Source: a virus. Taken from it: DNA of 64,000 nt. Positions 15,274 to 52,919 of the stretch are shown here, in pieces (within the stretch, counting starts at the first letter, position 1; each line of letters starts with the position of its first letter). The DNA lies in the IMG/VR virus record IMGVR_UViG_3300021440_000017, positions 19,101-83,100 of that record. One strand, given 5' to 3'. Below the pieces are notes generated by a model that worked only from the letters and a program-made list of their open reading frames with translations, ran no database searches and was not told where the DNA came from. The translations under genes were made by a program, and so were the position numbers.

Positions 15274-15305
15274 GCGCCTGCTGCGCCGCTCGTGGCTGCT
15301 TCGAG

Positions 15306-15345: not shown

Positions 15346-15358
15346 TTACGGAGTGACA

Positions 15359-16467: not shown

Positions 16468-16484
16468 CCCATAGGAGAACGAAC

Positions 16485-16694
16485 ATGGCTGAAAAGCTAT
16501 TGAACATGGGTCCGGTGTCCGTACCAATCCCCGTCGTGAACGGTGATGGCGCACGGGACACCGTGACTCTCCAACCAGGTGGCCGGCTGACGCTGCCGCT
16601 GGGCTACAAAGTCGATCCGGGGTTCGCAGCCGCCGGTCATCCGAAGGTGTACGTGAACGGCACACCGATGGGCAACGTCAACAAGGGGGCCTGA
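16485..16694 (+). CDS. Small structural-type protein (69 aa)
   Basis: Begins MAEKLLNMGPVSVPIPVV after AGGAGAAC. A compact beta-rich protein with the segment VTLQPGGRLTLPLGYKVDP, resembling a small jelly-roll or beta-sandwich fragment, ending NVNKGA. It sits one base before the sheath gene and is very likely co-translated. Possibly a minor virion component; function not known. Confidence 0.6.
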   Translation: MAEKLLNMGPVSVPIPVVNGDGARDTVTLQPGGRLTLPLGYKVDPGFAAAGHPKVYVNGTPMGNVNKGA

Positions 16695-16695
16695 C

Positions 16696-33178: not shown

Positions 33179-33753
33179 CATTTCCGGTGCTCGGGTAGCA
33201 AGAACACGTGACGGATCGCCATCTCCTGGTCGAACATGGCAGTACCCATCACCTCGTCCCAGTAGAACGAGAACGCGGACACCGTGCGTGGAGGCAACTG
33301 TTCTTCCAGTGCCGACACGTACCGTCCGGTCTTGCGGCGAGCAACGCGGTCCCACACGCGGTCGTGCTGCTCTGCGCGGGCCGCTGGCGTGTACGTGAAG
33401 TACCGGTAGTACCGCTTGGACTCAGCGTACTCGATGGCGGCATCCAGTAGGATGCCCAAGCCGTTCATCGGAAGCCCGTTGCTTGCCGTTTGATCGCTGA
33501 TGACGAGAAGCAGCAACCAGGCACGCTGGCTCGTCATCAGCTTCTGCAACAGGTAGCACCAGATGCGCCCCTCGCTGTCCACGAGGCCCCAGGTGCGGTA
33601 CATTTCGTTCTCGGGCACTAGGTACTGGTTCTCCAGGTAGTGCCGTGCGTACATCGGGTTGGCGAGGGGCGCACCGTCTATGTCAGTTGGGTTGCCCTGG
33701 CGGATGCGCATAAGTTGGTCGGCATGTTCGGGGCGGAGTCGGAGTACGTTCAT
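33178..33753 (-). CDS. GNAT-like acetyltransferase (191 aa)
   Basis: I start at MNVLRLRPEHADQLMRI, overlapping the upstream stop as ATGA. The order of strands and helices (N-terminal LRPEHADQL helix, WGLVDSEGRIWCYLL beta hairpin, AWLLLLVISDQ strand, GLGILLDAAIEYAESK helix, YYRYFTYTP strand) suits the GNAT acyltransferase fold, although the acetyl-CoA pyrophosphate loop is degenerate. Second gene of a leftward two- or three-gene unit with an asparagine-synthetase-like enzyme. Substrate unknown. Confidence 0.6.
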   Translation of the reverse strand: MNVLRLRPEHADQLMRIRQGNPTDIDGAPLANPMYARHYLENQYLVPENEMYRTWGLVDSEGRIWCYLLQKLMTSQRAWLLLLVISDQTASNGLPMNGLGILLDAAIEYAESKRYYRYFTYTPAARAEQHDRVWDRVARRKTGRYVSALEEQLPPRTVSAFSFYWDEVMGTAMFDQEMAIRHVFLLPEHRK

Positions 33754-34739
33754 GTGCGTCCTAGTGGGTGGTTGATTAGCGAGAGCAGATCGCGGTACGG
33801 GATCTCCGTAGACGACCAGCAACGGAAGGGCATGCTCGTGCGCACGGCTTCGGACTCCGTGAACACCTGCGTGAGTTCACGTTCGTAGCCCGTGTACTTC
33901 ACGCGAGGTCGCAGTCCATAGGCACGGTCTTTCACGAGGTCCGAACTGTGAACCCGACGGTTGTACTGGCCGGCGACGAGGCGGACGAGAAACGGGTTCG
34001 CCAGATACGCAGCCCATAGCTCCAGACTGTACTGGTAGAACGACGGGATGACCCTGTGGTTGTCGGTCCAGTGCAGGTACTTCTGGAACGCAGGGAACCG
34101 CTCATGGTCGTGGAACATGAACGTGCCCTTGCTGTAGTCTCCGTCGATCTGCGCTTGAAGGTCCGGCACGTAGTTGACCTCGGGTTCGTTGAACCCGGAC
34201 ACGAGGGCACCCGGTGTGTCGCGCACAGCGACGTACCACGGTGCGTAGCCCACATGCTTGCACTGGCTTACACGCGCGAGTTCACGAGCCTCACCGCTGT
34301 CGATCAGCACCTGCATGTCGATGTCGAAAAATCGGTAGTCGAGCCCGAGCTTGTGCGCGAGTCGCAATGCCGGCACCAGATCGTGACGATTGCCTCCGCG
34401 CGCATGCCGGATCAGCAACGTAGTGAACGGGACACCAGCGTCCAAGAACCTCCGGACCATGTACTCGGAATCAAGGCCACCGCTGAGCATCAGCACCAGG
34501 TCTTCGCCGTGGAACCTGTCGGCGATAGCCCGAGCGTTGAGTACCGCTTCGTCACGTAGAGTACCAAGAGCCCTGGTGAGCCCTCGATTGATCTTCATCA
34601 CGTACGTTGCGTCCTCGTGCACACGGAACAAGCCGGGGAACCCGGCGTACCCGTAAGCGAACCACGAGTCGGCAGTGAACCTCGGTGTGGGAACCAAGTT
34701 CAGGCGCACCCACGCTGCGACGAGTTCGTCATTGTCCAT
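33750..34739 (-). CDS. Asparagine-synthetase-like PP-loop ATP pyrophosphatase (329 aa)
   Basis: LVLMLSGGLDSEYMVRRFL contains the SGGxDS PP-loop (residues 86-91) that binds ATP in asparagine synthetase-type enzymes, followed by alternating strands and helices (FTTLLIRHARGGNRHDLVPA; YRFFDIDMQVL). There is no N-terminal glutaminase domain, so it probably uses free ammonia or an amine acceptor. It would adenylate a carboxylate and form an amide. It is divergent from, and next to, the rightward biosynthetic block. Confidence 0.8.
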   Translation of the reverse strand: MDNDELVAAWVRLNLVPTPRFTADSWFAYGYAGFPGLFRVHEDATYVMKINRGLTRALGTLRDEAVLNARAIADRFHGEDLVLMLSGGLDSEYMVRRFLDAGVPFTTLLIRHARGGNRHDLVPALRLAHKLGLDYRFFDIDMQVLIDSGEARELARVSQCKHVGYAPWYVAVRDTPGALVSGFNEPEVNYVPDLQAQIDGDYSKGTFMFHDHERFPAFQKYLHWTDNHRVIPSFYQYSLELWAAYLANPFLVRLVAGQYNRRVHSSDLVKDRAYGLRPRVKYTGYERELTQVFTESEAVRTSMPFRCWSSTEIPYRDLLSLINHPLGRT

Positions 34740-35442: not shown

Positions 35443-36225
35443 ATGTACGTCTCGGATCATGCACGTCGCATTCTCATTCCCATTCATCTGCTGTTCGCCG
35501 CAGTGACGGCCGCCTGGGTGTACAACGGGGCTCACGTACCGTGGCCGGCAGCAGTTCTCGCCGTCGCATGGTGGACGCTGCTCTCTGGGCTTGGCATCGC
35601 CGTGGGATTCCACCGGTACTTCAGCCATCTGGCGTTTCCGGCCAAGCCGTGGGCGCGCAAGCTCATGCTCGGCGCCGGAACACTCGCTGGGCAGGGGTCA
35701 CCGATCTTTTGGGTGGCGTTGCACATGGGCTACCACCATCCGCATTCGGACGAACGGAAAGACGTGCACTCCCCGGTGCACGGCATCTGGTCTGCGTACA
35801 TGGGGTGGATGATCCGGCTACGGCCTGACGATGTGAGTCTCAAGTACGCGGTGCGGTTGCTCAGGGACCCGCTGATCGTCACCGTGCATCAGCGGTACTA
35901 CACGGTGTTCTGGCTGGCGTACGCAGCGATACTCGGGATCGCAGCTACAGCAGGGCTACCGTACGTCATGGCCGTGATGACCGCGCTTATCGTCGCCGTA
36001 CACCAGGAGTGCGCGGTGAACGTGCTGAACCACAGTCGCTGGTTCGGTTACGTGAACTACTACACGGGAGACAACAGCGTGAACAACGTGGTCACTGGCC
36101 TCTTGTGTTGGGGCCAGGGGTGGCACAACAACCACCATCAGTTGCCTGGCCGAGCGAACTTCGGTGTCCGATGGTTCGAGTACGACCCGACACGGTTGCT
36201 GATTCCCCTGGTTCGCGCACGCTGA
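35443..36225 (+). CDS. Membrane fatty-acid desaturase (acyl-CoA/acyl-lipid delta-9 type)
   Basis: 260 residues with the three histidine boxes of membrane di-iron desaturases: HRYFSH (57-62), HMGYHH (94-99) and HNNHH (228-232), plus NHSRW at 196-200. Hydrophobic segments at about 10-30, 36-56, 80-95, 150-190 give the usual two membrane hairpins. The order and spacing match stearoyl-CoA-type delta-9 desaturases. It would introduce a double bond into an acyl chain at the cytoplasmic membrane. A lipid-modifying enzyme is unusual in a phage and opens the rightward enzyme block. Confidence 0.9.
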   Translation: MYVSDHARRILIPIHLLFAAVTAAWVYNGAHVPWPAAVLAVAWWTLLSGLGIAVGFHRYFSHLAFPAKPWARKLMLGAGTLAGQGSPIFWVALHMGYHHPHSDERKDVHSPVHGIWSAYMGWMIRLRPDDVSLKYAVRLLRDPLIVTVHQRYYTVFWLAYAAILGIAATAGLPYVMAVMTALIVAVHQECAVNVLNHSRWFGYVNYYTGDNSVNNVVTGLLCWGQGWHNNHHQLPGRANFGVRWFEYDPTRLLIPLVRAR

Positions 36226-36235
36226 GGACACGATC

Positions 36236-37309
36236 ATGAACGTAAACCCCGTTGAGCAGTTCCCCACCGCCGTGCTCTGGAAAGACCTGATGAGTCCCGA
36301 GGGCATTGTCGCCATGTCCAAGACACTTGGTCCCGGCACCGTGTTCTTTCTCAATGCGGAACCTCGTGACTACGAGGAGTTCCGTGCGCTCGGCATCGAC
36401 GTGCGCCCGCGGTCACAGGTGTCTACGTCGCTGGTCACCGTGGAACGACCAGGGCAGACGCAGATAACGGCGACTACGAGCGCGGCGTCCGCAGTCATGG
36501 GCAAGTCGTGGTCGCTGATCTGCGACGCCGGAGTCCGCACGTTCGTCGTCGAGAACGGCAAGGTGTGGTCCTCAGTGTGCAAACAGCGCAAGCTCATGGG
36601 TGTGCCCGACAAGTTCGAGATTTCTGATTACCCGACACGGTGCATGCGCAACGCCTGCGACTACCACTTCGACGCGCTGGCTCCGAAGCACGGCAGCGAG
36701 AACCTGGAACTCCCGAACTTCAGGAAGTTCGAGGTGCCCACGGAACTCGCATCGACAGTGGAAGACGTGCGCGTAGCGCTGCTCACGAAGCTGCAACGTG
36801 AGGAAGCAGGGTACGCAACAGGCGTCAATCGTCAACGGTATCCGAACACGCCGTTCAAGACCACGAGGTCAGTGCTACTGCGCAAGCACTGCAACATCCG
36901 GGCGTACAACTGGCAAGCGAACCTGCAAGGGAGCTACGAAGACGTGGAGTGCGCGGATGATCCCACGTGGATGACTCCGTACTCGGAAGCAGGTGTATTC
37001 GCTCGTGAACTGCTGCCGAAGATCGTCGGGGTCGAGTGGCAAGACATCGGCCAGATCATCCTGTCGAAGCTGCCGGCCGGAGAGGTCATCACCACGCACT
37101 GGGACGCCGGCTACTACTTCGAGTTCTACAACCGGTACCACTTCGTCCTCGATACGAACGACGACTGTGACTTCATGATCCGGGACGAGACAACGAACAT
37201 GAAGGTTGGGAGCATCTACCGCATCAACAACATCGTCCGGCACTCAGTGGCAAACCGGGGCACCACGGACCGTTATCACGTGGTCGTGGACGCGAGGTAC
37301 CGTCGATGA
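36236..37309 (+). CDS. Aspartyl/asparaginyl beta-hydroxylase-like oxygenase (357 aa)
   Basis: The C-terminal 90 residues show the family pattern: THWD (H288, D290), RYHFVLDTNDDCDFMI, VGSIYRINNIVRHSVAN (H336) and R346 in DRYHVVVDARY, the iron- and 2-oxoglutarate-binding set. The first 250 residues are an additional region with several Cys (RCMRNACDYHF) and no clear match. Ribosome site GAGGACACG; it overlaps the radical SAM gene by ATGA. Probably hydroxylates an amino-acid or peptide carbon. Confidence 0.82.
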   Translation: MNVNPVEQFPTAVLWKDLMSPEGIVAMSKTLGPGTVFFLNAEPRDYEEFRALGIDVRPRSQVSTSLVTVERPGQTQITATTSAASAVMGKSWSLICDAGVRTFVVENGKVWSSVCKQRKLMGVPDKFEISDYPTRCMRNACDYHFDALAPKHGSENLELPNFRKFEVPTELASTVEDVRVALLTKLQREEAGYATGVNRQRYPNTPFKTTRSVLLRKHCNIRAYNWQANLQGSYEDVECADDPTWMTPYSEAGVFARELLPKIVGVEWQDIGQIILSKLPAGEVITTHWDAGYYFEFYNRYHFVLDTNDDCDFMIRDETTNMKVGSIYRINNIVRHSVANRGTTDRYHVVVDARYRR

Positions 37310-38883
37310 CTGACGCAGTGGTGTTCGCGGGGTACTCCCGTGCGGCAATCGGGGTGAAGCCAGCGGGAGCACACATCATCGCCAACGTGTTTCGCCGTGC
37401 AGGACTCACTGCTGTCGTCATAGACATGTGCACGGTGCTCACCCGGGAGCAACGGCAGAAGCTGTTGCGTTCGCACGTGACGCCGTACACGAAGTTCGTG
37501 TGCCTGAGCACCACGTTGTTTGGGCTTGCCGGCGACATGGTTACGGAGATCGAGGAGGTGGATGCGAGCATGACCACGATGTTCGGAACCCTGCGGCGTC
37601 GCGCGCCGGCAGCGACGTTCATCATAGGCGGGTCGAAGGTCACAGCGGGTGACCGCACGACCATGGACTTCGACTACGGAGTGATCGGGCAAGGCGAAAC
37701 GACGTTGCTGGCAATCGTGAACCACGTGCTGTACGGTGATCCCCTGGTCACGGACTTCACGGTGAACAACGTGCGGTACGTCAGCGACAAGACCTACCCG
37801 TACGGGACGTACAACACGGATGATCTCCTGGAGTTCACGGCGGATGACGGAGTAGCTCCGGGAGAGACGCTACCACTGGAGTTCGGTCGCGGCTGCGTGT
37901 TCAAGTGCAGCTACTGCATGTACGCGCTGACCGGCAAGGAGTTTGGTGACTACACGAAGCCCGCGAAGCTGCTGGCCGATGCCATGCGCCGGAATTACGA
38001 GCGCTTCGGGACCACCAGGTACGTGCTGACCGACGACACGGTGAACGACAGCCTGGAGAAGGCCCGCGTGTGGGAAACGGCAGTGTCCATGCTGGACTTC
38101 CCGGTTGAGTTCGGCGGGTACATGAGGCTCGAACTGTTCCACAAGTACCCGGAACTCATCGAGTTGTACGCGCGCACGGGGCTGCGCGCGGTGAACTTCG
38201 GCGTCGAAACCTTCAACAAGGTCGCGGGCTCAGCCGTCGGCAAGGGGTTCGGAGAACGCGGCCGTGACACGCTGCTGGCGCTGCGTGCTGCCTGGGGTGA
38301 CAACGTACACGTGTCCACGAACTTCATCATCGGATTGCCGACGGAGACAGAGGAGCAGATACGAGCAGATGCCGAGTGGCTCCGAAGAACTCGTGCCTGT
38401 CACTCTGCCACGTACTACAAGCTGCTGGTGGCCCGTGACCGGTCACAGCAGGGATTCGGACCGGAGTACGCCGGCTACTACCGCGAGACGGACGAGCCGT
38501 TGCCTCCGCAACTGGACTGGACAGCGTACCTGCGTCGGTACATCAACTGGAAGTCCCCGTGCATGTCGTTGGCGCAAGCTCATCGGTTGCAAGTGGACCT
38601 GAACACCAAGTGGGAGAACTGGCGGTGGAGTCTCGACGCGACCGTTAGCGCCTTCGGCTTCATGGCGCTGCGTCGCTGGTACTCTCAGCACGAGTTGACG
38701 CACAGCACGCGCGTAGGCTACGCCGAGCACCTACGGGAAATCGCGGAACTCCGGCGTGACACGTACGCGGCACTCATGGCCGAAGTGCCCTCGACAAGGG
38801 GTAACCCGATACGTGTCACGCCCAAGATCGTGCCTGCTTCGTCGCTGGCGTTCGTGAACAAGTGGGACAAGCGAAAGGTCTGA
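37306..38883 (+). CDS. B12-binding-domain radical SAM enzyme (525 aa)
   Basis: Residues 1-140 look like a cobalamin-binding Rossmann domain (AAIGVKPAGAHIIANVFR; ATFIIGGSKVTAG; FDYGVIGQGETTLLAI). The radical SAM core follows, with the [4Fe-4S] motif GRGCVFKCSYC (C197, C201, C204), then YVLTDDTVNDSLEKA, FGGYMRLELF, VNFGVETFNKVAG and NFIIGLPTETEEQ. The C-terminal 130 residues are helical. Such enzymes do methyl transfers to carbon or phosphorus, ring rearrangements and other radical steps. It is flanked on both sides by oxygenases. Confidence 0.9.
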   Translation: MTDAVVFAGYSRAAIGVKPAGAHIIANVFRRAGLTAVVIDMCTVLTREQRQKLLRSHVTPYTKFVCLSTTLFGLAGDMVTEIEEVDASMTTMFGTLRRRAPAATFIIGGSKVTAGDRTTMDFDYGVIGQGETTLLAIVNHVLYGDPLVTDFTVNNVRYVSDKTYPYGTYNTDDLLEFTADDGVAPGETLPLEFGRGCVFKCSYCMYALTGKEFGDYTKPAKLLADAMRRNYERFGTTRYVLTDDTVNDSLEKARVWETAVSMLDFPVEFGGYMRLELFHKYPELIELYARTGLRAVNFGVETFNKVAGSAVGKGFGERGRDTLLALRAAWGDNVHVSTNFIIGLPTETEEQIRADAEWLRRTRACHSATYYKLLVARDRSQQGFGPEYAGYYRETDEPLPPQLDWTAYLRRYINWKSPCMSLAQAHRLQVDLNTKWENWRWSLDATVSAFGFMALRRWYSQHELTHSTRVGYAEHLREIAELRRDTYAALMAEVPSTRGNPIRVTPKIVPASSLAFVNKWDKRKV

Positions 38884-38884
38884 C

Positions 38885-39439
38885 ATGGATTTCGGAGCGG
38901 ACTTCCGATTGCTGGAAGCAGAAGTACCGGCACGGTTGTGCCTTCGTGCGGTTGCCGAGATACAAGAGCGTGCAGCCGCTGGGGACTTCGACAACGTAGA
39001 CAACCGCGCGCGGCATCGGCTGTATCCCGAGTTGGCCGAAGCGGATGTCGTGTACCTACGAGCCCCTGTACTTCAGGGACAGCCCGGTGTGCGCGGCGAC
39101 ATACTGGACTGTGAGAACACGCCGGCGGTGGCGAAGTTCCCTTGGTGCTGGGTTGCACTGAGAACGGCGCTACCAGACGCCGTGTTCGGTCGTGTGATGG
39201 TCTCCCGTGTGGACGGTCCCGGTCGAGTAGCCACGCACGTGGACGCTGGTGCCATGGCCGTGCAACACCGAAGGCACCATGTGTGTCTCACAGTGGAAGA
39301 CGCGGAGTTCACGGTGGGTACCACGACAGTGAGGATGGAGCCGGGGTCCGTGTGGGAGATCAACAACCGACGGCCGCACTCGGTCACGAACCACAAAGGG
39401 CTACGGTTGCACCTGATCGCTGACGTGGTTCCACGCTAA
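38885..39439 (+). CDS. Second aspartyl/asparaginyl beta-hydroxylase-like oxygenase (184 aa)
   Basis: A shorter relative of the 357-aa oxygenase two genes upstream: ATHVDAGAM gives H118 and D120, followed by RRHHVCLTVEDAEF, MEPGSVWEINNRRPHSVTNH with H165, and R174 in GLRLHLIADVV. All metal and co-substrate residues are present. AAAGG precedes the ATG. It probably acts on the same pathway as its neighbours, perhaps a second hydroxylation. Confidence 0.8.
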   Translation: MDFGADFRLLEAEVPARLCLRAVAEIQERAAAGDFDNVDNRARHRLYPELAEADVVYLRAPVLQGQPGVRGDILDCENTPAVAKFPWCWVALRTALPDAVFGRVMVSRVDGPGRVATHVDAGAMAVQHRRHHVCLTVEDAEFTVGTTTVRMEPGSVWEINNRRPHSVTNHKGLRLHLIADVVPR

Positions 39440-40652: not shown

Positions 40653-41990
40653 ATGGGACTACGTATCGTTGTGAGCGACGCCGGCTACTACCCGTCCTTG
40701 GTAGACCGTCTCGTCTCCGAGGGACACACCGTACATCTGACGATGCCGAACTTGCCGCCGGGTGCAACGCTGGGCTACCTTCCCGGAGACGGCACGTACA
40801 TGACGGATGAACAAGTGGTGCTCGCTGCCGTCGCCAACAGCATCGACCTGTACGTCGGCTTCGAGTTGGGCGACACGCTGGGCACGACGCTGCGGATGTT
40901 CGATCTGCCGGTGCTGATGCACGACGAATCGGCCTTCCGTCTGGAGACGAACCGCGCGCTCGGCGCAGCGTTCATCCAGCACCGAGTCTCCGGTGTCCGC
41001 GTTGCCAAGGCACAGACGTTCGACTCGTTGCCGGAAGTCAAGAAGTTCCTGGCGGGCAGCAAGAGCAAGCTCGTGGTGAAGCCGGCTCCGAACTCCGTCG
41101 GTCAGGCAGACAACGACCTGCGATGCCACTTCAGCACACCGCCTCATCGCAACACGTTGGCGCTCGTGGCCGAAGATGGCGGGTACTTCGACGAAGACGG
41201 ACAGGGTAGCGTTCGCATCGAGGAGTTCCTCCCTGGTGTGGAAACATGTGTGGGTTGCATGTTCGACGGCACGAAGTTCGACACCGTGTTCTACATCTGC
41301 CATGAGCACAAGGATGCGCAGAACGATAGCCGCAGTGGCGTGCTCACGGGGGAGGTCGGCAGCACGCTGACATGGCACCACCGTGTACAGAATCCAGTGG
41401 TGGACGCGCTGCTGGACGAAGTGGCGCAGAGCCTGAAGGGCACTGGTGCGGGGTTCATCGACCTGAACCTCATGCTTGACCCCAAGAGGAAGACCGTGAC
41501 GCTGATCGAGTGGACGGTGCGTTGGGGACGCCCGACAATGGAACTGGTGCTCGCCACGTACATGGGCGATTTCGGTGCCTACCTGCACAGGGCAGCGGCG
41601 GGCAAAATCGGCACGGTGGTCGCGGATTACGCGAAGGCAGCCCTGGGTATCGTGGTCTACCCATACGGCTATCCGTTGGTGCCAGGCAACGAGAAGCCAC
41701 AGCAGTACCCTCCGTGCTTCAAGAAAACCAAGGGCGCTGCGCTGTACCCGCTGACGTGTGTGCGGCTGACCCCCACGACGTACATCGCGCAGGATCGGTA
41801 CGCGGTGGCGGTCGCGGTGGCAGACACGATACCGAACACGGAGGAGCAAGTGCTGATGCTGCAAGCACGAGCAACGGCGCTAGCCGCTCGTATGGACATT
41901 CCAGGCAACACATGGCGTGACGACATCGGCAGCCATTGGCTCGACGACCTGGAAACCGCACGTATCTGCCTGGGGCTCAACCGTGGTTAA
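40653..41990 (+). CDS. ATP-grasp ligase, PurD-like (445 aa)
   Basis: Start MGLRIVVSDAGYYPSLVD follows TTTGGAG. An N-terminal Rossmann-like domain (residues 1-95) precedes an ATP-grasp core: FIQHRVSGVRVAKAQTFDSL, SKLVVKPAPNSVG (the ATP-binding Lys strand), SVRIEEFLPGVETCVGCMF, and a metal-binding TGAGFIDLNLMLDP...LIEWTVRWG segment. This arrangement is close to glycinamide-ribonucleotide synthetases. It would make an amide or peptide-like bond through an acyl phosphate. First gene of the unit after the terminator. Confidence 0.85.
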   Translation: MGLRIVVSDAGYYPSLVDRLVSEGHTVHLTMPNLPPGATLGYLPGDGTYMTDEQVVLAAVANSIDLYVGFELGDTLGTTLRMFDLPVLMHDESAFRLETNRALGAAFIQHRVSGVRVAKAQTFDSLPEVKKFLAGSKSKLVVKPAPNSVGQADNDLRCHFSTPPHRNTLALVAEDGGYFDEDGQGSVRIEEFLPGVETCVGCMFDGTKFDTVFYICHEHKDAQNDSRSGVLTGEVGSTLTWHHRVQNPVVDALLDEVAQSLKGTGAGFIDLNLMLDPKRKTVTLIEWTVRWGRPTMELVLATYMGDFGAYLHRAAAGKIGTVVADYAKAALGIVVYPYGYPLVPGNEKPQQYPPCFKKTKGAALYPLTCVRLTPTTYIAQDRYAVAVAVADTIPNTEEQVLMLQARATALAARMDIPGNTWRDDIGSHWLDDLETARICLGLNRG

Positions 41991-42966
41991 CGAGACGACA
42001 GTCAGAGCCCTGGTGAACCAGGCGGATGCGGTGCCCCCTTTGGTACACGCCACCGTGGTCAAGCTCGTGGAAATAGAAGCGGGGCTCAACGCCGTGCTCA
42101 AGCCCGAGTTGGAACTGCTGCTGGACGAGCGTGTACTCCTCGTGGACGGTACAGCGAGAATGCAGTGGCGCGATGACATGTGGCATCCGTTCTTTCACGA
42201 TCTGATTCCGTTTCCGGACTGGGACGTCGATGCACAGTCACTCGACCTCGTACTCGGGCACTGCGACGATGGCAAGACCGGGTTCAACCTCTACGGGTTC
42301 ACCGAGGACATTGAATCCGTGCACGAGCTTGCGGTGGAAACCGAAATCCACGTGTTCACGAGGGCCACGAGTGCTCCGCTAGCCCGGCTGAACTCGAAGC
42401 AACGGAATGCCATCGGCAACACGGCGATACCCGAGGGCATGACGTTGCACCCGTGCGTTGACTCGTCGGTGTACCGGTTGCTTCCGCTCATGGTCAGTTC
42501 CTGGGTGTACAAGCACAACGTGGACGACGTGGGCAACCTCGTGCAAGAGATTTGTTCGTGGACGTACGTGGCCGAAGCGGCGAAGATGAACAGAGCCTGG
42601 CTGTGGATGCTGAAGTACGAGGAACAGCCGGTGTCGCTGATCGGCTTGGTACAGCACGACGAAGACACTGCGGTGTTCCAAGCGTTCTGGCAACTGCCCT
42701 TCGACTACGGGCTGAACAACGGATACGATCCGAAGCGGCCGTTGGGCACGCTCATGCTCGCAAACGCGCTGACCACAGTGTCTCTTCAAGGCTTCGACAC
42801 TGTGCTCACATGGCCGTCCTTTACCGGACCCGGAGAGCCCATGAGCTACGAAGCGTACAAGCGCAAGTTCAGCAACGAACGCCGCGCCGCGTACTCGTAC
42901 TACGGGACACACGGCAAAGCCACACCACCGTACTATGACCTGACAACCAAGGAGCTACGCAAGTGA
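41983..42966 (+). CDS. Putative FemAB/BioF2-like GNAT-fold acyltransferase (327 aa)
   Basis: Starts with GTG overlapping the ATP-grasp stop. The C-terminal half has the style of GNAT/FemAB-type acyltransferases (PVSLIGLVQHDEDTAVFQAF; PLGTLMLANALTTVSLQGFD) ending in a characteristic YEAYKRKFSNE 'YK..F' stretch. The N-terminal half is alpha/beta without a clear match. Its tight coupling to the ATP-grasp gene suggests both act on one amidated product. Assignment is by pattern only. Confidence 0.5.
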   Translation: MVNETTVRALVNQADAVPPLVHATVVKLVEIEAGLNAVLKPELELLLDERVLLVDGTARMQWRDDMWHPFFHDLIPFPDWDVDAQSLDLVLGHCDDGKTGFNLYGFTEDIESVHELAVETEIHVFTRATSAPLARLNSKQRNAIGNTAIPEGMTLHPCVDSSVYRLLPLMVSSWVYKHNVDDVGNLVQEICSWTYVAEAAKMNRAWLWMLKYEEQPVSLIGLVQHDEDTAVFQAFWQLPFDYGLNNGYDPKRPLGTLMLANALTTVSLQGFDTVLTWPSFTGPGEPMSYEAYKRKFSNERRAAYSYYGTHGKATPPYYDLTTKELRK

Positions 42967-43877
42967 AACCGTTGAAGATCGTGAAGGACTGGGACCACGT
43001 GTACGAGCACGCGGCGCTGTACCGAATGGGTTTCGGACACGGGCCGGCGCACATCGCGTACGAGACGGTGCTGATGCTGCAAGTCCTCGACCGCGTGCTG
43101 AACACTGTGGACCCGATCACCGTGCTCGAACTCGGTTCGGGTCCGCGTTCGTTCTACAAGGACGCGTTCTTGCGCTACGCGCCGACTGCGCTGAAAGCTC
43201 CGGTTGCCAAGTACCTAGGCTCCGACTTCGTGGTCGAGCCGGGCGTTCGCGATGTGATCCCCTGGGACTTCACCAAGGTGCTGAAGACGAAGCTCCGCGT
43301 GAACGTCGTACTGATGCCCTACTACCTCGTGAACTCGCTGATGGACTTCACGACGTTCAAGCCCATGAGTCAGCCACTGGTGCAGCAGTTCTGGAACTCG
43401 GTGTCCACAGTGCTCGAGCCCGGTGGCTTGCTCGTGGCGCACACGCCGTACCAGTCTGAGGCGAAGCGCGACCGGTGGAAACGCGAGAGGTTCATACAGC
43501 ACGCGCTGATCGGCTACCACTTGGTGCCCGAAGTGGAAGCCGTGTTCGGCTTGCAACCAGGCACGTTGAAGACCCCGGTGTTCTACAAGTCGCACAGGTC
43601 AGTTGGGCACGACGACGTGTACAACTGGGACACCGTGCGGCGCATCGTCATCAACGGGGAGACCACACGAGGTCAGCCTGTATCGCTGGAAGCACGGTTC
43701 CGCAAGTCCACGCTGTACTACCCGGTGGGCAAAATCCAGTACGTGCAGTCGCAGAAGCTCGTACCTGTGGCGAAGTTCTTGGATGCCGAGCGTGCGGACT
43801 TCGAGGACCTGGTGACACCGGTAGCTCTCAAGGCCTTCACGGACACGCAGTATTGGACGGTGTACCGCAATGCCTGA
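42963..43877 (+). CDS. Class I SAM-dependent methyltransferase-like protein (304 aa)
   Basis: GTG start in a GTGA overlap with AAGGAG upstream. Motif I reads TVLELGSGPRSF, followed by KYLGSDFVVEP (motif II region), IPWDFTKVLK and VLEPGGLLVAHTP (motif III/IV), a Rossmann-type methyltransferase order. The C-terminal 110 residues add a beta-rich region (ARFRKSTLYYPVGKI). Substrate unknown. Confidence 0.72.
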   Translation: MKPLKIVKDWDHVYEHAALYRMGFGHGPAHIAYETVLMLQVLDRVLNTVDPITVLELGSGPRSFYKDAFLRYAPTALKAPVAKYLGSDFVVEPGVRDVIPWDFTKVLKTKLRVNVVLMPYYLVNSLMDFTTFKPMSQPLVQQFWNSVSTVLEPGGLLVAHTPYQSEAKRDRWKRERFIQHALIGYHLVPEVEAVFGLQPGTLKTPVFYKSHRSVGHDDVYNWDTVRRIVINGETTRGQPVSLEARFRKSTLYYPVGKIQYVQSQKLVPVAKFLDAERADFEDLVTPVALKAFTDTQYWTVYRNA

Positions 43878-44340
43878 CGTGACGCTGTACGAAATCGAGT
43901 ACGACCAGACCGTAGACACCGTGTACGATCTGCTGTCGTTGCTCGAAGAGTACCCTGTAGGCTGTGCGCCTGAAGACGTGGCACACTGGATGTCCAACTG
44001 GGATCGCTTCCGCATTGTGCTGGCCTACCGAAGGGGTAAACCAGTGGGGTTCGCCGTGGTGTTCGTCACACCCGGCTACAAAGAGATGCCCTTCGATGTG
44101 AACCACGTGCTGCTCGACGTGCTGTACGTTAGAGCCCGCTACCGTGGTCAGAACATCGGGCAGGTACTTGTGGACTACGTGAAGTCCGAGTACCCATCGG
44201 GATTCACCGTGCGCACGGACGTGGCCGACGCCATTCGCTTCTACAAGCGTGAAGGCTTTCGCGTGCTACAAACGGAGCCGCATGCGCTGGAACTAGGCAC
44301 AACAGGGACGAGACTAGCATGGCAACCGAAGAAGCGATGA
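43870..44340 (+). CDS. GNAT N-acetyltransferase (156 aa)
   Basis: LLDVLYVRARYRGQNIGQVLV contains the GNAT motif A acetyl-CoA loop (R-x-x-G-Q-x-I-G), preceded by a beta-hairpin (FRIVLAYRRGKPVGFAVVF) and followed by AIRFYKREGFRVL, the motif B pattern. Length is typical of the family. It overlaps both neighbours. Likely acetylates an amine generated or exposed by other enzymes in the block, such as the PIG-L-like deacetylase product. Confidence 0.87.
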   Translation: MPDVTLYEIEYDQTVDTVYDLLSLLEEYPVGCAPEDVAHWMSNWDRFRIVLAYRRGKPVGFAVVFVTPGYKEMPFDVNHVLLDVLYVRARYRGQNIGQVLVDYVKSEYPSGFTVRTDVADAIRFYKREGFRVLQTEPHALELGTTGTRLAWQPKKR

Positions 44341-45086
44341 GCGTAGGGGACTCGAAGGTCGAGCACGCCGTCCGCACGCTAGCGAAGATGGCGCAGGTCT
44401 ATGGGGCTCACGAGTTCCAGATGCAGTACGAGCACTTCAGCATCGGCGAGTTGCCTTACGAGGTCAGAGAGACAGGAGATCGTGGGTTCATCCCCATACC
44501 GTTCGCTCAGATGGAGTTTCCGGCAGAGTGGGAGACCGTGCTCAACGCGCTAGGTCAAGAACGAGCGTCGCTTATCCGGGTCGTAGACGATGGGTCCTCG
44601 GACTGCGTGGTGGACGTACCCGCAACCAAGGAACTGCTGTGGAAGCAGCAGCGGAGATTCGCACGCACATGGGTCGAGAACCTGGTATTCACGACGGAGG
44701 CGCCTGCGACATCCGTGATCGAAGAACTGCTGGAGTCGAACAAGAAGCGGTGGCTAGCCCGAGGTATCGTCCAAGAACCTGGCTCCCTGGCGACGACGCT
44801 ACTGCGGTTGGCACACGTCTTCGGTCCACGTACCGTCTACTACGTGTGGGACGCCTCTAAACTCATCGCCGTGATCGAGACGCAGGATCTTCCATCGGGA
44901 CCGACGTATTGGGTAAATACCTACCTATGCGCGGACGCCAACCGTAGTGGTCTTGGCAACACGTGCCTGCTGTACCTGATGCTTCAGCATCTAGGGCACT
45001 CCGTAGACCTTGGAATCTCGATCCTGGAGTACAAAGCGCTGTGGAAACCACGTATCACGTCTGTCAAGGGGTTTGACTGGCTATGA
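44337..45086 (+). CDS. Putative BioF2/FemAB-like acyltransferase (249 aa)
   Basis: I chose the ATG giving MSVGDSKVEHAVRTLAKM, in an ATGA overlap, though an ATG six codons upstream is possible. The second half carries the pattern of a GNAT-fold acyltransferase: SNKKRWLARG, TVYYVWDASKLIAVIE, TYLCADANRSGLGNTCLLYL and DLGISILEYKALWKP, where the final 'D.G....EYK..WKP' resembles BioF2-type proteins. Related in style to the protein after the ATP-grasp ligase. Confidence 0.55.
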   Translation: MSVGDSKVEHAVRTLAKMAQVYGAHEFQMQYEHFSIGELPYEVRETGDRGFIPIPFAQMEFPAEWETVLNALGQERASLIRVVDDGSSDCVVDVPATKELLWKQQRRFARTWVENLVFTTEAPATSVIEELLESNKKRWLARGIVQEPGSLATTLLRLAHVFGPRTVYYVWDASKLIAVIETQDLPSGPTYWVNTYLCADANRSGLGNTCLLYLMLQHLGHSVDLGISILEYKALWKPRITSVKGFDWL

Positions 45087-45616
45087 AGAAAGCTCTGTGC
45101 GTCTTCGCGCATCCTGATGACTCGTTCCTCTTCGCGCACAACATCAGACGCAGCACCCCTGATGTCGAGTGGTTCGATCTGTGCCTCACGTACCGTGCAG
45201 ATCAGCGCAGAGGTCGAGAGTTCGTACAGGCCTGCGCCATCATGGAATCGCAGCCGTTGCTAGCGGGGCTCATCGACAACGTGTATGAGACGCCAGCACC
45301 GAGCGTGTACCAAGAGGCAGTAACGCATACCCTGGGTACCGCAGGCTTGACCTTGGATGACTTCACTACGGTGGTCACGCACAATCCAGTTGGCGAGTAC
45401 GGGCATGGTCATCACAAAGCTGCGCACCGCGCGCTCGTGGGCCTACCGTTCACCGCGCAGCTTCTGATGCCTGCGCACAACTACGCTGTACCCGAGACGA
45501 CGTACGTGTCCATGGACAAGCTGAAGAGCCCCCTCGTGGACCTGTTCGAGTCCGAGCACTACCTGCTGTTTCACTTCGACCTGATAACGGAAGGCTTCGT
45601 CACATGGCAACGATAG
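45083..45616 (+). CDS. PIG-L/LmbE-type N-deacetylase (177 aa)
   Basis: The N-terminal VFAHPDDSFLFAHN holds the zinc-binding HPDD motif (H10, D13 or so), and VVTHNPVGEYGHGHHKAAH provides the second HxxH zinc-binding set; both are diagnostic of GlcNAc-deacetylase family proteins. Such enzymes remove acetyl groups from amino sugars attached to lipids, inositol or other groups. It overlaps both neighbours and is followed by a glycosyltransferase, a common pairing. Confidence 0.88.
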   Translation: MKKALCVFAHPDDSFLFAHNIRRSTPDVEWFDLCLTYRADQRRGREFVQACAIMESQPLLAGLIDNVYETPAPSVYQEAVTHTLGTAGLTLDDFTTVVTHNPVGEYGHGHHKAAHRALVGLPFTAQLLMPAHNYAVPETTYVSMDKLKSPLVDLFESEHYLLFHFDLITEGFVTWQR

Positions 45617-46632
45617 TCATACGGAGCCCGGAAGCTACGTTCAGGCCTGAAGGGTACATCGTCAACCACGTTGTCCGCGAACTGGTTGACGCCGGTGTTC
45701 ACGTCACGGAACTCTGGTCGGCACCGTCTCCCGCGGTGTCCGCACAGACAGGCTTCTTCGACAACGCCACGCTATCTCGTGCTCATCTGGAAGCCGTGCG
45801 CAAGGCAATAAGCGTGGTGCGCGATGGTGACACCGTGTTCTTCTCTGACCTACTGGGACCGCCGCTTTCAGTGTTGCGCATGCATGCGTACTGCGCGAAG
45901 ATCAGGATCACCGTGTGCGGAGTGCTGCACTGCTTTGTCAACCGACCTCGGGACTTCCTATACGATGCGCCACCCTGGGCATACCAGATGGAGTCTCACA
46001 TGCTGGAGTGCGCGGACGAAGCCTACGTTGCCACCCCGCACGGTCAGGAGTGCATACGCGGAAACCGCTTTGTCTCGGAAGCTCAGTTTCAGAAGGTCAA
46101 AGTCGTGCGGTTCCCTTTTCTGGTGGAGCCGCGTGTCACGGAGAAGCCGTCGAGGCGACGAGTGGTGTTCGCGCACAGGTGGTCCCCTGAGAAGAACCCG
46201 CAGCAGTTTACGCAACTGGCAGCGTTGGCAGCAGCCCAGGGTCTGGACATGGAGTTCGTGGTGCTGCACCCGACGCCGTTGCCGGCCGAAGTCCAAGAAC
46301 AAGCCCACGTGAAGTTCATTCTGTGCCGCACGCGAAGTGACTACGAACGGGAACTACAGTTGGCGCACTTCGTGTTCTCGGCATCCATGCTGGAGTCTTT
46401 CGGCTACGCCATCATCGACGGGCTGTCCTACGACGCGATCCCCGTAGTCCCCGACGTGTCTTGCTACCCCTTTCTGTACAAGCCCGAGTACGTGTACCCG
46501 CCGGGTGACTTGCAGGCTGCTCTAGCGTGCATGTCGCGGCAGCATCAAGGGTTTCCGCTGCAAGAGTGGTACTCAGAGGCTCCCACCATAGGGGCGAGCG
46601 TTCTTTCACTGACATCAAGGCACCAGACATGA
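45604..46632 (+). CDS. GT-B fold glycosyltransferase (GT4-like, 342 aa)
   Basis: N-terminal Rossmann-like domain (TIVIRSPEATFRPEGYIVNH; TVFFSDLLGPPLSVLRMHAY; VCGVLHCFVN) and a C-terminal nucleotide-sugar domain: RRRVVFAHRWSPEKNPQQF matches the 'V...R...EKNP' start, and ASMLESFGYAIIDGLSYDAI contains the E-x-FG-x-x-x-x-E/D-type donor-binding segment. It transfers a sugar from a nucleotide donor to an unknown acceptor; neighbouring deacetylase, acetyltransferase and methyltransferase genes suggest a modified amino sugar. Confidence 0.85.
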   Translation: MATIVIRSPEATFRPEGYIVNHVVRELVDAGVHVTELWSAPSPAVSAQTGFFDNATLSRAHLEAVRKAISVVRDGDTVFFSDLLGPPLSVLRMHAYCAKIRITVCGVLHCFVNRPRDFLYDAPPWAYQMESHMLECADEAYVATPHGQECIRGNRFVSEAQFQKVKVVRFPFLVEPRVTEKPSRRRVVFAHRWSPEKNPQQFTQLAALAAAQGLDMEFVVLHPTPLPAEVQEQAHVKFILCRTRSDYERELQLAHFVFSASMLESFGYAIIDGLSYDAIPVVPDVSCYPFLYKPEYVYPPGDLQAALACMSRQHQGFPLQEWYSEAPTIGASVLSLTSRHQT

Positions 46633-47213
46633 ACCTGCATACTGCACACCACGGCAAAGACGAGAGCGGACGAGCGCCGATCATCGAGGGCTACATTCGC
46701 CAATCCGTGGACTTTGCGTTCTCGAACATGGGGAGCACAGGTTCGGCGGTGAAGATGATGGACGTGGGTGCCGACTACGGCTATGCCATGCACTACGCAG
46801 CGACGACTTACGGTGCCCAGGTGTGGGGGCTAGAGCCGTACACGCAGAGCAACGTGTGGGGTCTGAACATCATGCAGGGCTCGGTGGAAGACCCGGCATT
46901 GCAATACCGGTGGCTCGCCGCTACATGGCCGAAGGTCGATCTCCTGTTTCTCAACCACGTGCTGGAGCACTTCTGCGATCCACATGTTGCGCTGATGAAT
47001 CTCCGGCATCTGTTGAAGCCCGATGGCTGGATTTTCGTGGCGACGCCGGAAGCGAACTCGGAATGGGCACTATGGGACGGCCACTTGTCGATCTACACAA
47101 GGCCGTTCACCGACTACCTGATGAACATGCACGGGTTCATGGTGGAAGCTCGTGACGAGAAAGAATTCAGACCAGGGAACGTCGAGCTATGGACGCTCGC
47201 AAGGAGTGTGTAA
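46629..47213 (+). CDS. SAM-dependent methyltransferase (194 aa)
   Basis: Motif I KMMDVGADYGYAMHYAATTY, LFLNHVLEHFCDPHVALMN (the HVLEH motif of Methyltransf_23) and LLKPDGWIFVATPEA are clear. Length is typical of a small-molecule methyltransferase. The HVLEH type often acts on sugars and polyketides. No strong ribosome site, consistent with coupling to the glycosyltransferase by overlap. Confidence 0.87.
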   Translation: MNLHTAHHGKDESGRAPIIEGYIRQSVDFAFSNMGSTGSAVKMMDVGADYGYAMHYAATTYGAQVWGLEPYTQSNVWGLNIMQGSVEDPALQYRWLAATWPKVDLLFLNHVLEHFCDPHVALMNLRHLLKPDGWIFVATPEANSEWALWDGHLSIYTRPFTDYLMNMHGFMVEARDEKEFRPGNVELWTLARSV

Positions 47214-47990
47214 GTGGACAAGCGAATTGCGGTGTGTGTCTCCGGTGGACTCGACAGCTTTCTTGCCTACCGTTGCGCGTGTGCACGGTACGGCAAAGAC
47301 AACGTGGCCTCCGTGTTCATTGACTACGGACAACCGTATCTGACCAAGGAGGTGCGTGCGGTAACGCAGTTGATCCCCGATGTCACGTGTGTACACGCGG
47401 AGTTGGCGGTGCCCGCATTGTTCAACGTGCCGACGGTGGAACATCAGGAGGTCTTCGGTCGGAACATCCTGCTGGCGTTCTACGGTGCGCAGTTGGCACC
47501 TGAAGTGTGGCTGTCGGCGTTGGAAACGGAAATGAACGTGACGGCAGTGCGGGACAAGCAGCCGGAGTTCCTGCACATGCTGTCTGCGCTGTTCACCTAC
47601 ACGTTCGTCACCAAGAGGGCGGAGACGGTGGTGACAACGCCGTTCCGTCATCACACCAAGTCAGACATCGTGGAACTGGCGCTGGACGAAAACTGGGCTT
47701 CCCAACAGGAGATACTGAGCACCGTCAGTTGCTACGATGGAGCGCATCAAAACTGCGGAGCCTGCAGTACGTGCTTCAAGCGATGGTTAGCCATGGTCAA
47801 CAACGGGATACACGAAGACTACGTGCTGTCACCGCTGCTCAACCACTACGGGCGTACGGTCTGTCGGTTGATGGCGGAGGAAGAAGCCACCGGAAAACGA
47901 AGCGGCCGGTTCTCTGCTGCGCGAGTGCAGGAGACCAAAGCGGCGCTCGCCAAGGTCGGGTACTCCCTGGAATCGTTCGGCAACGCGTGA
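47214..47990 (+). CDS. queC: QueC-like 7-cyano-7-deazaguanine synthase family protein (258 aa)
   Basis: GTG start seven bases after AAGGAG. Signatures: the PP-loop VCVSGGLDSFLAY (10-15), VFIDYGQPYLTKEV (the DYGQ motif of QueC), VFGRNILLAF (GRN), RHHTKSDIVELAL and a C-terminal zinc site with C173 and CGACSTC (C181, C184, C187). All are typical of QueC/ExsB, which converts 7-carboxy-7-deazaguanine to preQ0 with ATP and ammonia. No FolE, QueD or QueE is in the window, so its substrate must come from the host or elsewhere in the genome, or the enzyme has been recruited to another amidation. Confidence 0.82.
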   Translation: MDKRIAVCVSGGLDSFLAYRCACARYGKDNVASVFIDYGQPYLTKEVRAVTQLIPDVTCVHAELAVPALFNVPTVEHQEVFGRNILLAFYGAQLAPEVWLSALETEMNVTAVRDKQPEFLHMLSALFTYTFVTKRAETVVTTPFRHHTKSDIVELALDENWASQQEILSTVSCYDGAHQNCGACSTCFKRWLAMVNNGIHEDYVLSPLLNHYGRTVCRLMAEEEATGKRSGRFSAARVQETKAALAKVGYSLESFGNA

Positions 47991-48001
47991 AGGAACACCA
48001 G

Positions 48002-48397
48002 ATGATTGCCTATGACTTGGATGGTGTGCTCGTGTCCGACGTGTGGTCCCTCGACCTTGAGTACCGCATTGCCACTCGGAACTTCCTGAAACCCGTGTTC
48101 GTGCCGCAAGGTGAGTACGCGATCATCACAGGACGCCACGTAGCGGACGCCAGGGCCACGATGGAATGGGTCGCGCTGCACCTACAACGGAACCCGCCTG
48201 TAGCGTTGCACATCGGAGCTACTGAAGGTGGCGCACGAGCGTCGGCTGCCTGGAAAATCCGGGTGCTCCGGGAGCATCCTGAGTACCGGACGTTCGTGGA
48301 GTCCGACGAGGGGCAGTACAAGGAGATTCGGGACGCGTTGCCGGACACCCGCGTTCTGCACTTCGAGTACGAACTGGGCGCCAGATTGGCGTTCTAA
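48002..48397 (+). CDS. HAD-superfamily hydrolase (131 aa)
   Basis: AYDLDGVLVSD is the HAD motif I (nucleophile D and acid D), YAIITGRHV motif II, AAWKIRVL supplies the motif III Lys and TFVESDEGQYKEI the motif IV acid. The small size implies a minimal core without large cap, as in phage and archaeal small phosphatases. Probably dephosphorylates a nucleotide or sugar phosphate in the preceding pathway. It closes the enzyme block before a terminator. Confidence 0.8.
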   Translation: MIAYDLDGVLVSDVWSLDLEYRIATRNFLKPVFVPQGEYAIITGRHVADARATMEWVALHLQRNPPVALHIGATEGGARASAAWKIRVLREHPEYRTFVESDEGQYKEIRDALPDTRVLHFEYELGARLAF

Positions 48398-51197: not shown

Positions 51198-52919
51198 ATG
51201 CGCATTCTCGATACCACGGTGACGGCCGCGTTGCCAACTTCGGGGGCCACAGCGTTCGCTGCGATTCTGCTCACGGCAGGGAAGCACTACGACGAAGCGA
51301 AGACCGGCATCCTCAAGAAGTCGAAGAACGACTTGGCACCTCTGTGGAGCCTCGCCGACGACTTCGTGTACGGGCACGGCGGCGCAAAGCGCGCATGGCG
51401 ACTGTTCCGCAACTGGTGCGACTCTCCGCCGACCGCGAGTTCCGACGATGAAGAGTACGGCCCGTACGAAGACGCACTGAAGGAAGTGCGGAGCAAGAAG
51501 TTCCGCGACCGCGTGAAGAACGACGGCGCACTCACGCAGGAGCAAGCGCAGGTCGCGCTAGACGCGCTGGCCTGGTGCGTCACAGGGTCGCAAACGGCGT
51601 TTCTTCGGATTCGCAAGCTCGGCACCTCGGTGGGTTTGCCGGCTTCTGTCTTGTCCCTGCTGTTCGTCGAGTCCGGAACCCAGGACAAAGAAGTCAAGAC
51701 GCTGACCGCGCTGTACCGCAAGTACAAGCTGCCGATCCGCCCGGACTTGCGGCTGACCGTCGGAGAAGCGACAGCGTTCGCCGAGGAGTATCCCGAAGAA
51801 GCCAAGCGCATGTCCGACATGCGCAAGAACGCGCTGAAGGTCTTCAAGACCGAGTTGATGAACTTCATTCGCGGAGCCGGCGGCCCGCAACCGGTGGAGC
51901 ACGTGCGCAAGCACATGCAAGCACAGGGCATCCTCGTCACGAGACTGCCACCCGACGTGTTCCGAGGGCAGATCGGCGAAGACGGCAAGCTGTTCACCAC
52001 CGCAGGCGAACCCATCGACGGCGGGTACTCCGACGACATGGTGCTGAACCCGAACTACGACCCGCAGAAGGACAACGGGTACGTGTACAAGTACAAGGCC
52101 ACACCGGATAGCCCGGGGTGGACAACGGTGTTCACGCGCTCCTGGAACCAGCGCAGCGACGACAAGACGTTCAAGCTCGCTCAGGAGCTCGAAGACAACC
52201 TGGACACCGTACGGTCCAAGCTCATGAAGGCCATGCGTGGCTCGGATCGCAAGAGCCAGGTCCTGGCGGCCATGCTCGAACTCCAGTACCTGACGGCCAT
52301 GCGCATCGGCAACCCCGGTGGTGCAACCAAAGGGAAGGACGGCGTGGTCGAACCCACCTACGGGTTGACCACGTTGGAAGTCCAGCACGTACGAGTGCGT
52401 GGTCCGGGCCTGGTCATCGTGTTTCACGGCAAGTCCGCTGTCGAAGCAACGTACACGGTGACGCCTGTGGACGCGAGGATGAAGCTCGTCATCAACATCG
52501 TCAAGTCGCTTCTCGTCAACGAGGATGGGTCGCCGAAGGCCAAGACCGACTACGTGTTCGAGGACCGCTCCGGTCGGTACAACAGCGCGCGCGTGAACAA
52601 GTACCTGCGGTCGATCACGGGCATCACGGGCATCACGAACCACAAGATTCGGCACATGCGCGGCACCGCACTGGCGCGCACGGCCATCGCTGATATCCCG
52701 ATGCGGCTGACGCAGGATTCGGCAGAGCATCAGTTCCTGGATGCCATGACCAAGGTCGGCAAACTCCTGAACCACGTGAAGGGTGTCGTCGGCGGAGCCA
52801 GGCAGGTCACGCCGGACACCGCGATCAAGAACTACGTGGACCCGAAACTCATGCTCGACTTCTTCCGCACACGGGGCCTGCGCATTCCCAAGAAGCTCCA
52901 GCAGTTCGCCAACCGATAG
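51198..52919 (+). CDS. Topoisomerase IB-like protein with long N-terminal region (573 aa)
   Basis: The C-terminal 270 residues show the type IB catalytic set: LQYLTAMRIGN (R369), a YGLTTLEVQHVRV strand followed by FHGKSAV (K412), KIRHMRGT (H486, R488) and the nucleophile Y546 in KNYVDPKLMLDFF, which resembles the '.YIDPR' active-site motif of poxviral and bacterial TopIB enzymes. The first 300 residues are helical and Lys-rich and have no obvious match; a segment near 260-310 may correspond to the N-terminal beta domain. It would relax supercoils by single-strand cleavage. Its place between lysin and fibres is unexpected. Confidence 0.8.
   Translation: MRILDTTVTAALPTSGATAFAAILLTAGKHYDEAKTGILKKSKNDLAPLWSLADDFVYGHGGAKRAWRLFRNWCDSPPTASSDDEEYGPYEDALKEVRSKKFRDRVKNDGALTQEQAQVALDALAWCVTGSQTAFLRIRKLGTSVGLPASVLSLLFVESGTQDKEVKTLTALYRKYKLPIRPDLRLTVGEATAFAEEYPEEAKRMSDMRKNALKVFKTELMNFIRGAGGPQPVEHVRKHMQAQGILVTRLPPDVFRGQIGEDGKLFTTAGEPIDGGYSDDMVLNPNYDPQKDNGYVYKYKATPDSPGWTTVFTRSWNQRSDDKTFKLAQELEDNLDTVRSKLMKAMRGSDRKSQVLAAMLELQYLTAMRIGNPGGATKGKDGVVEPTYGLTTLEVQHVRVRGPGLVIVFHGKSAVEATYTVTPVDARMKLVINIVKSLLVNEDGSPKAKTDYVFEDRSGRYNSARVNKYLRSITGITGITNHKIRHMRGTALARTAIADIPMRLTQDSAEHQFLDAMTKVGKLLNHVKGVVGGARQVTPDTAIKNYVDPKLMLDFFRTRGLRIPKKLQQFANR

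Follow-up and report, generated by a model that had tools for sequence, protein, structure and literature searches.

What does a QueC-like enzyme do in a phage sequence that holds none of its usual partners? QueC takes part in the synthesis of modified bases in DNA and RNA, and a gene of this family lies at positions 47214-47990 (plus strand) of the stretch studied here, a 64,000-nucleotide window that spans bases 19101-83100 of the 83,100-base virus record IMGVR_UViG_3300021440_000017. The remaining left arm of the record is referred to as L003. A first-pass annotation of the window had reported FolE, QueD, QueE and DpdA as missing and offered three readings: the partners are encoded elsewhere in the genome, the host supplies the precursor, or the enzyme is a QueC relative that amidates another carboxylate.

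The open reading frame encodes 258 amino acids from a GTG start located directly after the stop codon of the preceding gene, and an AAGGAG sequence ends seven bases upstream. Its GC3 is 0.75 and its codon usage resembles that of its neighbours. The Pfam QueC model matches the protein with 66 bits (cut-off 22, E = 4.5e-18), and PHROGs assigns it to phrog_1550, 'QueC-like queuosine biosynthesis' (E = 3e-20). Pfam, tree, structure model and structure matches place it as a QueC-family N-type ATP-pyrophosphatase of a non-aromatic branch. As judged from its sequence, it is a real QueC-family enzyme within a tight operon.

The protein had been credited with all QueC signatures. This holds for SGGLDS (S10-S15), DYGQ, GRN and the four cysteines (C173, C181, C184 and C187), but not for two substrate motifs. 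The YPDC position reads V112-R113-D114-K115, with Val in place of Tyr and Lys in place of Cys. In YxQxHxxE, the residues Y38, Q40 and E46 are kept, the His is absent and the Glu follows one residue later, a shift that the available text of PMC13329287 also gives for Cap9. R83 and N84 are retained in a VFGRN where VPxRN would be expected. The same portion of PMC13329287 names Y35, R99, Y189 and Tyr131 as essential in E. coli QueC, with Y131A inactivating the enzyme. By our own mapping, the first three correspond to Y38, R83 and Y174 of the window protein and are kept, while the fourth, Tyr131, is Val. D114 corresponds to D117 of Cap9, which reads the Watson-Crick edge according to the accessible part of PMC13279940. 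This Asp is invariant in 28/28 aligned rows, as are the RN and the zinc-binding cysteines. The NCBIfam QueC equivalog model gives the protein 54.8 bits, which does not reach its cut-off of 150.3, and the chain ends in a helical extension (about residues 200-258).

The structure model, built from 28 sequences (pLDDT 90.5, pTM 0.89), resembles several enzymes to a similar degree. Foldseek ranks B. subtilis QueC first and Cap9 second. With VIA-align, the Z values of QatC (18.4 over 221 residues), Cap9 (17.5 over 173 residues) and QueC (17.2 over 181 residues) are nearly tied; the QueC and Cap9 alignments cover residues up to about 200, and QatC alone of the three spans the C-terminal helices, reaching about residue 251. 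In QatC, these helices bind the partner QatB, as described in the available sections of PMC13279940.

These likenesses bring in an alternative that we regard as unlikely, although it is the main rival to the reading favoured below: a Cap9/QatC-like conjugating ligase, which would activate 7-carboxy-7-deazaguanine (CDG) or another acid and join it to an amine made by neighbouring enzymes or to a protein N-terminus. Conjugation to a protein N-terminus is what Cap9 performs (PMC11996544 and PMC13279940, as far as their available text goes). In favour of such a ligase, a PDB sequence search with the single protein has Cap9 as its best match (E = 3.6e-5), QatC gives the longest structural alignment, which takes in the C-terminal extension, and QatC likewise lacks the CDG-binding Tyr in the account given by the accessible part of PMC13279940. 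Against it, the Z values hardly differ, and the 28-row profile places canonical QueCs (5.5e-33 and 6.6e-31) ahead of Cap9 (9e-25) and far ahead of QatC (2.4e-8). Moreover, the NCBIfam QatC model gives only 20.2 bits against a cut-off of 280, and the protein retains the D114 contact, whereas for QatC the same text reports the loss of the CDG-binding Asp as well as the Tyr.

A feature-by-feature comparison separates the protein from all three enzymes. With canonical QueC (2pg3, 3bl5 and the QueC of phage CAjan) it shares the fold, the ATP loop, the RN and the zinc site; it differs in the lost Tyr and Cys of YPDC and His of YxQxHxxE, in the added C-terminal extension, and in its position outside the canonical branch. 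With Cap9 of type IV CBASS (9nto) it shares the Y/FxQ(x)5E spacing, the RN, PF(x)4K and the zinc cysteines. However, it lacks the Tyr and Cys of YxDC and has 258 residues compared with about 185, and Cap9 falls outside its branch, on a long edge of the tree. The Cap9 motifs H(x)4YxDCxxxF and CE(x)6CxxCxxCxD do not match, owing to Val for Tyr, Lys for Cys and CY for CE. In type IV CBASS the operon partner of Cap9 is a CD-NTase with an N-terminal glycine; no CD-NTase was detected among 20 ORFs scanned with Pfam. With QatC of qatABCD (9y01 and 9y02) the protein shares a non-aromatic substrate motif and aligned C-terminal helices, but it has no N-terminal domain, retains D114, and is shorter (258 versus about 400 residues). 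Because it lacks defining features of each, we do not file it as a canonical QueC, a Cap9 or a QatC.

Its changed substrate site recurs among other viral QueCs. Viral contigs were scanned with an alignment of five QueCs, and the best 80 of 150 relatives were kept. Together with phage records, the window and three PDB chains this gave 94 sequences, which were dereplicated to 80 rows. The YPDC Tyr column holds Tyr or Phe in 51 of these rows, namely 48 loci and the three PDB chains. The other 29, including the window, are non-aromatic (Val, Ala, Ile, Gly, Ser, Cys, Gln or a gap), a label defined after the alignment had been inspected and under which the gap of L024 is counted. Two pairs, L009/L049 and L040/L043, are near-copies, and the rows are not independent by descent. 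In the tree, the 29 non-aromatic rows fall on one side of a branch with support of 97/92, recovered in 98% of 200 bootstrap trees. In a second tree, from which the long rows L008, L109, L024, L038 and L007 were dropped and to which the QueCs of five phages with chemically typed DNA were added along with two Gat-QueC domains, the remaining 26 stay together (100/99, 100% of bootstrap trees). The three PDB chains are the only cellular sequences in the tree, from which a phage-only status of the branch cannot follow; a genome scan with the window protein returned no relative.

Like Moby gp041, L004, L034, L048 and L051-L056, to which it is 24-30% identical in the alignment, the window protein has lost the Tyr of YPDC and kept the Asp. 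These viral QueCs often have a C-terminal extension, as the window protein does, and often a HAD-like neighbour. In contrast to the window gene, which adjoins sugar- and acyl-transfer genes, they occur together with folE, queD, queE or DpdA genes. Four other branch members score 36-53 bits with the QueC equivalog model, next to 54.8 for the window. A phylogenetic position outside QueC had been named as evidence against the QueC reading. The protein does lie outside the branch that contains the bacterial QueCs of solved structure, yet the branch to which it belongs is itself one of QueCs and is linked to 7-deazaguanine genes.

Counting DpdA, QueD, QueE and FolE at E<=1e-3 in the flanks examined, and drawing on the best 80 of 150 relatives, all 28 other branch rows have at least one partner gene nearby, 26 at least two and 24 at least three; for the 48 aromatic loci the corresponding numbers are 40, 33 and 31. 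When all of the sequence available for each record was searched, the non-aromatic gene was the sole QueC in 23 of 26 records, and therefore the branch enzyme usually appears to be the QueC of its pathway. The complete genome of Stenotrophomonas phage Moby, a Menderavirus, illustrates this with one QueC, plus FolE, QueE, QueD and a transglycosylase. In the other 3 of the 26 records (behind L034, L042 and L054) a Gat-QueC-like gene, labelled by eye from an MCGI start and a glutaminase-like first half, stands alongside. The branch enzyme can thus coexist with another QueC, which fits a different step, and where the two co-occur it may carry out another one. The Gat-QueC-like frame of L054 (7094-9364, 757 amino acids) has its QueC part interrupted by what looks by eye like an intein-like stretch.

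The proposal that the enzyme amidates another carboxylate can be judged on this basis. In its widest form, the protein would be a PP-loop ligase outside 7-deazaguanine chemistry, whose substrate for amidation or thiolation would be some unrelated carboxylate of the surrounding enzyme island. The non-aromatic YPDC position, the lack of any pathway gene in the record and the location in a 13-kb enzyme island are in line with it. Nevertheless, the 28/28 association with 7-deazaguanine genes and the invariance of D114, the RN and the zinc cysteines make this widest form very unlikely in our view. A QueC relative that simply amidates another carboxylate may still be the right reading, given the lost Tyr of YPDC, the Gat-QueC-like genes in those 3 of 26 records and the place of the gene at the end of an operon that also encodes PIG-L, GT4 and GNAT-like proteins.

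Which product the branch makes is a separate matter. The DNA modifications of phages CAjan, nt-1, HVTV-1, Dp-1 and CP220 were taken from the available text of PMC6884629 and PMC8306585. All five typed phages are aromatic, with Tyr in CAjan, nt-1, HVTV-1 and Dp-1 and Phe in CP220. Since these five are all of the aromatic type, we know of no product for the non-aromatic branch. CAjan (243.1 bits), Dp-1 (173.1) and nt-1 (168.1) pass the QueC equivalog cut-off of 150.3; HVTV-1 (140.1) and CP220 (139.3) are typed phages that also fall below it.

Are the partner genes truly missing? The absence reported for the window extends to the whole 83.1-kb record. The Pfam models of FolE and QueD find no match there, and profiles of DpdA, QueE, FolE and QueD, for each of which four to seven phage sequences were aligned, give none at E<=10 in the window and the left arm. 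A separate phage DpdA alignment likewise finds no match in the record. We discarded a null result with PF01702 as evidence against DpdA, as the same model fails to recognise the transglycosylases annotated in Motura, Moby and Finch.

The record itself, however, looks like a fragment of a giant myovirus of the Motura/BcepSauron type, as judged from its gene content. It matches the capsid protein, sheath, tube, topoisomerase and primase of Motura, with capsid protein identities of 43% to Motura and 46% to BcepSauron, myoviruses of 221 and 263 kb, respectively. Of 30 core-gene queries, 8 matched and 22 did not, although the misses could include divergent genes that escape detection. The Motura helicase, the Motura protease and the BcepSauron portal have no match in the record. 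The PhiXhv-12 queries among them (0/7 matched) lack a positive control, which leaves the fragment argument to the Motura and BcepSauron queries without a match. The nearest of three capsid-protein relatives in viral contigs (64% identity) lies on a 176,943-base record, of which 21 kb were examined and are collinear with the window record over the head-tail block. A DNA polymerase B model found no match in any of seven records and hence provides no completeness marker. A weak QueC-profile match in L123, the locus from the 176,943-base record, runs antisense inside a sheath gene and was dismissed as spurious. Given these signs of a fragment, the failure to find folE, queD, queE and dpdA is weak evidence, and we rejected it as proof of a lone QueC.

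A lone QueC would act on host CDG, raising host queuosine or modifying phage DNA with a host base-inserting enzyme. Most bacteria make CDG, which would provide the substrate. Phages with partial pathways, as well as lone or divergent phage QueCs, are described in the accessible part of PMC6884629. Yet this enzyme is divergent and has lost the Tyr, and its loneliness does not follow from a record that looks like a fragment; we consider a lone QueC highly improbable.

The giant Xanthomonas phage PhiXhv-12, whose sheath protein is 33% identical to that of the window record, demonstrates how widely the pathway can be scattered. On its 227.6-kb linear record FolE lies at 8706, a QueE-like gene at 11391, Gat-QueC at 120910 and QueD at 211106. 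The Gat-QueC is at least 88 kb away from folE, queE and queD, and any 83-kb piece around it would miss FolE, the QueE-like gene and QueD. No DpdA was found in PhiXhv-12 by two models, one of which is insensitive. In Motura, unlike PhiXhv-12, the whole pathway set lies within 6.2 kb. The 7-deazaguanine cluster of Motura also contains an asparagine-synthetase-like gene (L022 8038-9318) between QueC and the transglycosylase. With the fragment-like record, the scattered PhiXhv-12 pathway and the branch context, a location elsewhere in the genome is the best supported of the earlier readings, and the missing partners are probably encoded in a stretch of the giant phage's genome that is still unsequenced.

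Taken together, we somewhat favour a viral-branch QueC enzyme that amidates CDG in a 7-deazaguanine pathway encoded elsewhere in the phage genome or partly supplied by the host. To the observed family, ATP and zinc residues, branch membership, operon and fragment signs, this reading adds a conditional mechanism. The SGGLDS loop would bind ATP, and the enzyme would adenylate what we suppose to be its substrate, the carboxylate of CDG. Ammonia would then attack the adenylated CDG to yield the presumed product, the amide ADG, perhaps followed by conversion to preQ0. FolE, QueD, QueE and a base-inserting enzyme would be encoded on the unsequenced part of the genome or come in part from the host. 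Amidation of CDG is supported by the pathway genes near 28/28 branch rows, the sole QueC in 23/26 records, the invariant D114 and the retention of three of the four residues essential in E. coli. The replacement of Tyr131 by Val, the lack of pathway genes in 83.1 kb, the score far below the QueC equivalog cut-off, and a sugar- and acyl-transfer operon with no adjoining que genes argue against it.

This operon comprises nine plus-strand genes, from an ATP-grasp gene (40653) to QueC (47990), with junctions of -22 to 0 bases: seven of the eight are overlaps of 4-22 bases, while at the last one the QueC gene directly abuts its predecessor, several gene starts (including 40653 and 41983) being gene-caller predictions. 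The probable first gene of the run (40653-41990) encodes a PurD-like ATP-grasp protein (NCBIfam purD 66.5 bits, E = 2e-18, below the cut-off; Pfam GARS_A). It is followed by a protein with no family match (41983-42966) and a probable methyltransferase (42963-43877) that shares 4 and 8 bases with the genes on either side and has no Pfam match, but carries VLELGSG, which we take to be a methyltransferase motif. Next come a GNAT acetyltransferase (43870-44340; Pfam Acetyltransf_1, E = 1e-11) and a protein without Pfam match whose GNAT/Fem-like fold was assigned by eye (44319-45086). A PIG-L-type N-deacetylase (45083-45616; Pfam PIG-L 25.3 bits, below the cut-off of 28.2) and a GT4-type glycosyltransferase (45604-46632; weak Pfam Glycos_transf_1, below the cut-off) precede a SAM methyltransferase (46629-47213; Pfam Methyltransf_23, scanned from an earlier start at 46527) that ends one base before the QueC start. 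As the first-pass annotation stated, QueC stands at the end of an enzyme cluster, save for a HAD-like ORF downstream. At its start (35443-39439), the 13-kb island holds a fatty-acid-desaturase-like gene, two aspartyl/asparaginyl-hydroxylase-like genes and a B12-binding radical SAM enzyme. A second PP-loop protein with LSGGLDS is encoded at 33750-34739 (minus strand); it matches phrog_1550 weakly and has no relatives by tblastn in the phage collection.

Part of this cassette recurs in PhiXhv-12. Homologues of the PIG-L protein (41% over 184 amino acids, E = 3e-43) and of GT4 (34% over 323 amino acids, E = 1e-57), together with a gene that matches the GNAT/Fem-like protein over 53 amino acids near its C-terminus (36%, E = 3e-4), immediately surround its Gat-QueC. 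In PhiXhv-12, the QueC domain shares its chain with a glutaminase-type domain and is 22% identical to the window protein, and the gene order differs. Finding the cassette in two lineages, next to QueCs of different types, suggests that the QueC step goes with the sugar genes, although two cases are few. In 50,697 phage records, relatives of the window PIG-L at E<=1e-5 occur only in PhiXhv-12, -15 and -16 and Erwinia phage Ep032, of which PhiXhv-12 is the one whose neighbourhood was examined. Viral scans for the neighbouring methyltransferase, radical SAM enzyme and GT4, a genome scan with a GT4 alignment, and tblastn in phages for the methyltransferase gave no relatives. The main text of the PhiXhv jumbo-phage paper mentions no QueC, queuosine, deazaguanine or deacetylase.

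With its altered base pocket and this gene context, the enzyme could also be the conjugating ligase discussed above, whose amine could, for example, be a sugar amine freed by PIG-L after GT4 adds an N-acetyl sugar. The tight packing of 40653-47990 with QueC last save the HAD-like ORF, and the GNAT-like, PIG-L and GT4 homologues flanking the PhiXhv-12 Gat-QueC, speak for such a ligase; on the other hand, the cassette is seen in two phage lineages only, and six more distant IMG/VR PIG-L loci have no QueC in the flanks examined.

The HAD-like ORF lies 11 bp downstream of QueC (48002-48397, plus strand) and begins MIAYDLDGVL, its DLDGV motif pointing to a probable HAD-type phosphatase. It has no Pfam HAD or PDB sequence match and is missed by a motif scan. 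The HAD profile used here was seeded from the window, L004 and L005, all branch members, and a profile made without the window reaches the ORF weakly (E = 8e-4). Among the best 80 of 150 relatives, 13 of the 28 other branch rows have a HAD-like gene at most 432 bases from QueC or in fusion with it, against none of the 48 aromatic loci. A profile-independent motif scan finds one in 8/29 branch rows (the window not among them) versus 0/48. HAD genes are common in phages and also occur in loci without QueC; only the adjacency stands out. The ORF is thus a probable HAD protein and a candidate for the QueC-adjacent HAD of the branch. In Motura, a small ORF just upstream of QueD and QueC (L022 6571-6915) shows HAD-like motifs by eye and has no Pfam match.

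The branch and its neighbour invite a further proposal, which we regard as quite unlikely: the non-aromatic QueC and the HAD would form a distinct enzyme type that makes a CDG amide with an amine other than ammonia, giving hypermodified 7-deazaguanines. Here and in PhiXhv-12 the amine would be an amino or acylated sugar made by GT4, PIG-L and GNAT. We found no description of the Tyr-less branch or the HAD neighbour in the literature searched, which covered few subscription papers and is no proof of absence from print. The branch combines a changed substrate site with an unexplained HAD partner, while the typed systems (5/5) are aromatic. If a new base or conjugate is made, it would add to the known DNA or protein modifications and have a bearing on the route by which the defence enzymes Cap9 and QatC arose from QueC.

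Two further features of the record were recorded in passing. The window encodes a type IB topoisomerase-like protein at 51198-52919 (77 bits). On L003, two adjacent minus-strand genes, presumably for a nicotinamide phosphoribosyltransferase (15137-16687) and a ribose-phosphate pyrophosphokinase (16684-17523), could form an NAD salvage pair.
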